A stretch of DNA of 64,000 bases. Source: an uncultured Syntrophobacterales bacterium (GTDB taxonomy: Bacteria; Desulfobacterota; Syntrophia; Syntrophales; UBA5619). The stretch's first letter is position 1; each line of letters begins with the position of its first letter. Position numbers and translations under genes: made by a program. Shown piece after piece: positions 34,806-36,002 of this stretch. The stretch lies in NCBI GenBank assembly GCA_903928915.1, contig CAIYSL010000018.1:1-64000 (forward strand), given 5' to 3'. The notes under the pieces were generated by a model, which did not search any database, had not been told where the DNA came from, and saw nothing but the letters and a program-made list of their open reading frames with translations.

Positions 34806-34977
34806 CCCGCGCCGCCGTGCGGGAACGTACCCCCGTCGCAACGGCAGGTCGTTTCGCCGCAGGCTCCGCTCAAAGGGTTGGGGAAAAAGCCGCGGGCACG
34901 GGGCCGAGCGGCGCACGCCCCCGCGCATTCCGCCGGCCGGAGGACAGGAGTGGGGGCAGATGCTCCCGGCGTACGGG

Positions 34978-35778
34978 TCAGCGGGAGGCGGGAGCCGCCG
35001 GCACGGCGCCGGAAACCCGAGCCTCGGTGTGTGCCGTGACGACCGTCTCGATGGCGATCTGCATCCGGGCCCCGGTCCGGGAGGGGGGGAGGTCGAAGGC
35101 CCGAGCGGGGAGTACAGAGGCAAAAGAAAGCGCCGCCGCGAGGGCGGCCGTGAGGAGCTTCTGCTGGAGACACAGCCCCCGGGTGAGCTGCTCGGGTTTG
35201 AGATAGCCCCCCTCGACGAGAACTTCGCCGATCTTCTTGCGGGAGACCTTCTGGCGCCGGAGGGCCTCTTCGATCTTTTCCCGGGAGATCATCCGATTCC
35301 GGACGAGGATTTCCCCCAGCCGAAGCGCGGACCGCTCTTTTTGTTCCGCGCCCTGCCTGCGCTGGAACCCGAGCACCGCAGTGAGCTCCGCGGCGGTGAT
35401 CAGCCCCTTGCGGACGAGGATCGTCCCGAGCTTCTCCCCGGTCCGCTCCTGTTCCTCCAGGGCCTCCCCGAGGGAGTCGGGCCGCAGGCGTCTGGCCCGG
35501 ACGAGCAACTCGCCCAGCAGCTCGCGCATCCCCGCCGCTGCCGCAATCGCCTCTGCGGGGGAAGAGCATTCCTTCTGCACCGAGAGGATCGTCTCCAACT
35601 CCGCCTCGTCCAGGATGCCCATCCCCACGAGGACGGCACCGAGCTGGGCGCCGGTGTTCCGCTGCCGTTCGAGCGCCACCCAAAGGGCGGCCGAAGAAAC
35701 GAACGCGCCGTCGAGAAGGATCGTTCCCAGCATCCCTGTCTTTCCTGCCGGCCCGTTCATCGCCCGCGATTCTTCCAT
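34978..35778 (-). CDS. Protein with three tandem MshEN-type (c-di-GMP-binding-like) units and a C-terminal membrane segment
   Basis: The 266-residue protein contains six copies of a 24-residue motif of the form xLGxxLVxxGxLxxxxLxxxLxxQ, at residues 16-39, 45-68, 87-110, 116-139, 153-176 and 182-205. They occur as three pairs, and within each pair the spacer is exactly five residues. That is the architecture of the MshEN domain, known to bind cyclic di-GMP in MshE and related ATPases. Some copies have R or K before LG, as in binding MshEN domains, but others have M, Q or L. No ATPase follows. Instead a hydrophobic stretch (about 209-228) ending in ARA leads to a 35-residue tail. The role is unknown. 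Confidence 0.8.
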   Translation of the reverse strand: MEESRAMNGPAGKTGMLGTILLDGAFVSSAALWVALERQRNTGAQLGAVLVGMGILDEAELETILSVQKECSSPAEAIAAAAGMRELLGELLVRARRLRPDSLGEALEEQERTGEKLGTILVRKGLITAAELTAVLGFQRRQGAEQKERSALRLGEILVRNRMISREKIEEALRRQKVSRKKIGEVLVEGGYLKPEQLTRGLCLQQKLLTAALAAALSFASVLPARAFDLPPSRTGARMQIAIETVVTAHTEARVSGAVPAAPASR

Positions 35779-36002
35779 GAAACACCAGCCAGTCTTTCGT
35801 TTGCCCCCTCCCGCGGAAGGTAAGCCGGGGCCGGGGCTGCGCTTTCTTGCGCAGCCCTCCGGGCGGGCACGTCCGCCTGGAAGAGAAATCGGCAGTTCGA
35901 CGGAACAACTTTAGGGGAAAATTCGCCCGTACCTCCCGGCAGGAGGGGGCAAAGACAGCGCAGAGGAGGGGCGCGCGGCGATACGCCGCCGGCGGGAGAG
36001 GA

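Follow-up and report, generated by a model that had tools for sequence, protein, structure and literature searches.

The locus examined here raises the question of what an array of MshEN-type units is for when it stands without an ATPase and ends at the membrane. Within the window (the whole analyzed stretch of DNA, 64,000 nucleotides from an uncultured Syntrophobacterales bacterium), the gene occupies 34978..35778 on the minus strand and encodes 266 amino acids, as defined by the open reading frame list and the orthologue alignment; an alternative start at Met7 (35760) is possible. A plus-strand open reading frame (34960-35823) overlaps the gene, but every homology found lay on the minus strand. 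A promoter scan at the gene found none, and a terminator scan gave two terminator-like matches, near chance level and both inside the gene. There was no partner among the neighboring genes (fumarase halves, CoA-transferase, MFS, and aminotransferase). The window genome contained 15 GGDEF matches, and thus c-di-GMP is probably present. On balance, we regard the protein as an orphaned, truncated member of a family of putative transmembrane c-di-GMP receptors that probably is still tethered to the membrane, with putative ligand binding, topology, signal transfer, and partner.

Three MshEN_N units without an ATPase

The earlier note described six 24-residue motifs arranged in three pairs with five residues between partners, and this layout was confirmed: the motifs start at aa 16/45, 87/116, and 153/182, and the offset within a pair is always 29 (24 + 5). 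All six motifs matched at least 8 of the 11 consensus positions, and when the protein was shuffled 2000 times, 89% of the shuffles lacked any such 24-mer and the maximum was 3 per shuffle. On the minus strand, unit 1 (aa 16-68; 35575..35733) is made up of motifs MLGTILLDGAFVSSAALWVALERQ and QLGAVLVGMGILDEAELETILSVQ, with M and Q at the first positions; unit 2 (aa 87-139; 35362..35520) of LLGELLVRARRLRPDSLGEALEEQ and KLGTILVRKGLITAAELTAVLGFQ, beginning with L and K; and unit 3 (aa 153-205; 35164..35322) of RLGEILVRNRMISREKIEEALRRQ and KIGEVLVEGGYLKPEQLTRGLCLQ, beginning with R and K. Unit 3 scored highest of the three and also is the unit retained in single-unit relatives.

The view that these are MshEN-type units without an ATPase was upheld by profile searches. 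The NCBIfam model NF053729 (c-di-GMP motif, MshE related) matched the protein three times (E value of 2.2e-42; 142.6 bits, with a curated cutoff of 38 bits), and a search of the whole genome with this model returned separate matches at 35173-35322, 35362-35517, and 35575-35730. A sequence search of the PDB matched PilF, MshE, and PilB chains (best E value, 1.4e-14), and no ATPase domain was found in the protein with either Pfam or NCBIfam. The proposed check with MshEN profiles was not positive throughout, since the Pfam MshEN model PF05157, which includes the MshEN_C subdomain, did not match the protein, and the gene was not among the PF05157 matches in the whole genome. Pfam instead gave gathering-level matches to DUF4388 and DUF2949. 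These matches on an MshEN array suggest that both DUF models overlap with the MshEN_N motif.

Predicted c-di-GMP binding

In MshE, each motif of the form RLGxx..G..L...L..Q contacts one half of c-di-GMP (PMC5013675). Loss of the contact residues in all units, which had been named as grounds for abandoning the receptor idea, was not seen: G3 and Q24 are kept in six of six motifs, and position 2 is Leu, with a single Ile (LG, once IG). The same two residues were almost invariant across the six motifs in an alignment of 17 family members. At position 10, motif II has Gly in all three units, and motif I has A, R, and R. In Thermus PilF, the first Arg can be replaced by Lys or Leu with an affinity of 6 nM, and an R/K/L consensus has been proposed; judged by their sequence, the first positions of unit 2 (L/K) and unit 3 (R/K) fit this extended consensus (PMC11731258). 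The contact residues and the first positions together make units 2 and 3 likely c-di-GMP binders. Unit 1, with M and Q at the first positions, is the least likely binder.

The weak points of this prediction, namely, that motif I has A or R instead of Gly at its position 10 in all three units and that unit 1 lacks the first-position residue, could also mean that the array is an MshEN fold that does not bind c-di-GMP and, like Xanthomonas XpsE or Thermus PilF GSPII-A, serves as a structural or protein interaction module. Nonbinding MshEN relatives are documented (PMC5013675, PMC12002112). However, the known losses affect Gly3, Gln24, and the Leu cluster, all of which are kept here, a first-position Lys and Leu are present in the 6 nM binder (PMC11731258), and the 17 aligned proteins all keep the Lys of motif II in unit 2. 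We therefore consider a nonbinding array unlikely.

Anchor segment and topology

A C-terminal hydrophobic anchor, as first noted, indeed follows the array. It spans aa 206-226 (35101..35163, minus strand; QKLLTAALAAALSFASVLPAR), directly prolongs the final helix of unit 3, and is followed by a tail of about 40 residues. With its short hydrophobic core and small residues at ...ARA, it resembles a signal-type segment more than a long classical transmembrane helix. An AlphaFold2 model of the full-length protein of the same-order relative G033 contained three four-helix units, and the last helix of unit 3 ran into the hydrophobic segment as one helix (residues 206-230). The window protein is predicted to be a membrane-bound MshEN_N array with this segment as its tether. 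Because the anchor is short and AxA-like sites follow it, cleavage is possible, which would uncouple the two sides.

Full-length relatives carry an additional beta domain

Orthologues were found among 60 relatives, with identities of 69% in G003, of the same genus, and 46% in G033. The G033 protein continues past the anchor for about 128 more residues, which form a beta domain. When the C-terminal part and the full alignment were used as queries, further family members were obtained across the phylum, and a scan of named genomes, for which a closer subset of the C-domain alignment served as the query, yielded ten members, including those of Smithella, UBA4796, and Nitrospirae GWC2_56_14. A contig scan of genomes with the window protein as a single query found no relatives. 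At L095:2718-3910, a full-length member lies in three frames in a metagenome-assembled genome labeled Actinomycetota, and the similar L096 is intact; assembly errors are probable, and the label is doubtful. One candidate explanation of the window gene, that it is the N-terminal piece of a pilus ATPase, was ruled out: the ATPase is absent, the G003 orthologue ends with the same anchor and tail, and the full-length relatives have the beta domain at the place in question.

The C-terminal domain of the relatives had no Pfam match. Modeled alone, it reached a pLDDT of 90, and its most probable Foldseek matches were PapG/PapA pilin domains (probability, 0.97-1.00; TM score, 0.45-0.48), yet with E values of about 6e-3 or weaker; the domain is therefore a candidate for a pilin-like fold (incomplete Ig). 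A conserved VTARV stretch ahead of its first strand had no regular structure in the model and would fit a donor strand. Membership of the domain in the SCPU family was not established, since a profile comparison (hhalign) with the neighboring SCPU subunits was not significant (3%) and no SCPU profile matched. We found no description of an array-anchor-pilin-like family in the open-access literature, and the family appears to be undescribed.

Association with chaperone-usher operons

In G033, the gene is the first of an operon that also encodes four SCPU-type subunits, a PapD-type chaperone, and an usher-OmpA fusion. Nearly all members of the family have a chaperone, usher, or SCPU gene as a neighbor, often one that overlaps the gene. 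Across 395 genomes of the phylum, a PapD chaperone was present in 15 of the 16 genomes with the C-terminal domain and in 7 of the 379 without it (Fisher P value of 5e-21, uncorrected for shared ancestry). An usher with a C-terminal OmpA-family domain was also seen in a Smithella-type operon (L049:2174-5440, minus strand). Since the genes for full-length members lie in or beside chaperone-usher operons, we infer that c-di-GMP may gate pilus assembly.

Exchange of putative cytoplasmic modules on one C-terminal domain

Most members join the C-terminal domain to three MshEN units, and two (L081 and L082) join it to one. The same domain also occurs behind an ordinary signal peptide (twice in L122, and in L127 and L128). 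In two further loci, a response regulator receiver domain replaces the array ahead of the anchor and the C-terminal domain (L121:6765-7658, minus strand; L123:6442-7332, plus strand); in each case, a PAS-histidine kinase gene lies immediately upstream, and no chaperone-usher genes were found nearby. Our main argument that the full-length protein is a signaling protein is this swap of receiving modules, predicted to be cytoplasmic, while the anchor and the putative periplasmic domain stay the same. In a one-unit version at L126:6249-7500 (minus strand), the array is apparently frameshifted off the anchor and the pilin-like domain, which may be real or an assembly error. Additionally, a protein at L090:2-973 (plus strand) connects MshEN units via a lipobox-like segment (LLLVGC) to a transglutaminase-like/BTLCP-type domain and could be another c-di-GMP-to-periplasm fusion.

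The anchor could alternatively be a cleavable internal signal peptide, from which signal peptidase would release the periplasmic domain (in the window protein, a short peptide) while the array keeps a membrane stub, so that the array would control export or its timing and would not signal through an intact protein. In many members, the hydrophobic core is short and positions -3/-1 hold small residues (PARA-F, EATA-T, AIAA-Q, and KALA-A), the C-terminal domain is also found behind ordinary signal peptides, and the L090 array protein has its lipobox-like sequence at the corresponding place. However, the AxA site is absent from some members, and the exchange between MshEN array and receiver is simplest if the cytoplasmic and periplasmic parts remain joined. 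Cleavage seems to us an unlikely explanation of the design.

Under the preferred reading of the full-length members as transmembrane receptors, three cytoplasmic MshEN_N four-helix units, or one, would bind c-di-GMP, and the final helix of the last unit would lead straight into the Sec-type signal/anchor segment, past which the pilin-like beta domain of about 128 residues would lie in the periplasm. Through the anchor, c-di-GMP occupancy would reach the pilin-like domain and gate pilus assembly, for example, by presenting this domain to, or withholding it from, a PapD-type chaperone, the usher, or the growing fiber. It is possible, and we propose it tentatively, that the full-length relatives are new inner-membrane regulators in which c-di-GMP, or phosphorylation in the receiver versions, acts through the signal-anchor on the pilin-like domain as a posttranslational control of the chaperone-usher system, and that the window copy has been freed from this role and reused on another partner. 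A subunit-like protein with its own c-di-GMP array or receiver across the inner membrane would, if this holds, be a direct posttranslational pilus switch. The known c-di-GMP control of chaperone-usher pili acts through transcription. The fact that one C-terminal domain occurs in nature with an MshEN array, with a receiver domain, or with a plain signal peptide makes the switch idea testable.

Truncation and selection in the window copy

The tail of the window protein matches no more than roughly the first 50 positions in the profile of the anchor plus the C-terminal domain. After the anchor, aa 227-252 (35023..35100, minus strand) match the profile and represent a conserved remnant, the start of the lost domain; the pilin-like domain is missing from the final segment onward (aa 253-266; 34981..35022, minus strand). 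No remnant of the domain was found downstream of the gene in any frame, which ruled out its survival nearby in another frame. The G003 orthologue has lost the domain too and ends with the same anchor and tail. In a third genome of the genus, G001, a lone fragment of the C-terminal domain was observed (L083:9796-10167, minus strand), with no array and no evident signal peptide. A PapD chaperone (PapD_N) was not found in the window genome (G000), G003, or G001, and an usher was not found in the window genome.

Between the window gene and its G003 orthologue, dN/dS was 0.40 overall (266 codons); the units gave 0.32 to 0.37, the anchor 0.05, and the remnant (aa 228-252) 0.31, whereas the final segment, at about 1.1, is unconstrained. 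These values come from one genome pair, and the purifying selection that they reflect may partly predate the truncation. The window gene is truncated relative to the family yet, by these values, under constraint, and its sequence identifies it as a truncated member of the array-anchor-pilin-like family. The tether in the window protein would be left over from a transmembrane architecture with a pilin-like output in a chaperone-usher system.

The window gene might also be a decaying, functionless remnant, in which the pilus operon was lost first, then the pilin-like domain, with the array now drifting. The absence of both the C-terminal domain and the chaperone, the replaced position-10 glycines, and the lone domain fragment in another species of the genus would agree with decay. 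On the other hand, the frame is intact, the overall and anchor dN/dS values are low for species whose copies are 69% identical, and Gly3 and Gln24 are intact in all six motifs; we consider decay quite unlikely. The orphaned receptor remains our preferred reading. In the genus of the window, where the chaperone was not found and the pilin-like domain is cut off, the array and anchor are retained, and the purifying selection on both suggests that the protein most likely persists as a tethered c-di-GMP receptor with another partner. In this naturally truncated copy, the sensor would be set apart from the pilus.

Comparison with known systems

The fusion of MshEN_N to non-ATPase domains is already known in principle (PMC5013675). 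The proposal of a new receptor architecture stands with regard to the array, the anchor, and the missing ATPase; it does not hold as a self-contained design, since the full-length family adds a pilin-like periplasmic domain. The window protein shares with the MshEN_N/GSPII domain of Vibrio cholerae MshE and Thermus thermophilus PilF GSPII-B the 53-residue unit with two 24-residue motifs, the 5-residue spacer, and the LG and Gln residues. It differs in having three tandem units with a membrane segment at the end, in lacking MshEN_C and the ATPase, and in having weaker residues at the first position and at position 10. T. thermophilus PilF also has three consecutive N-terminal GSPII/MshEN units; however, PilF is a pilus ATPase, whereas the window protein has no ATPase and the predicted output of its relatives is on the far side of the membrane. 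NfrB and related c-di-GMP-activated glycosyltransferases are likewise membrane proteins with MshEN-type motifs, with an NCBIfam match below its cutoff; the window protein, in contrast, lacks a glycosyltransferase domain and has its array N-terminal to the anchor. The C-terminal domain of the relatives may resemble chaperone-usher subunits (PapG/PapA; archaic SCPU) in its predicted, possibly pilin-like fold, and it is encoded among chaperone, usher, and SCPU genes. Unlike these subunits, it matches no Pfam or SCPU profile and is fused to a cytoplasmic signal-binding array, and it is absent from the window copy. The LapD-LapG system, in which LapD has a degenerate EAL domain and HAMP, offers a parallel in idea only, as cytoplasmic c-di-GMP binding leads to a periplasmic output, and we claim no sequence relation to it.
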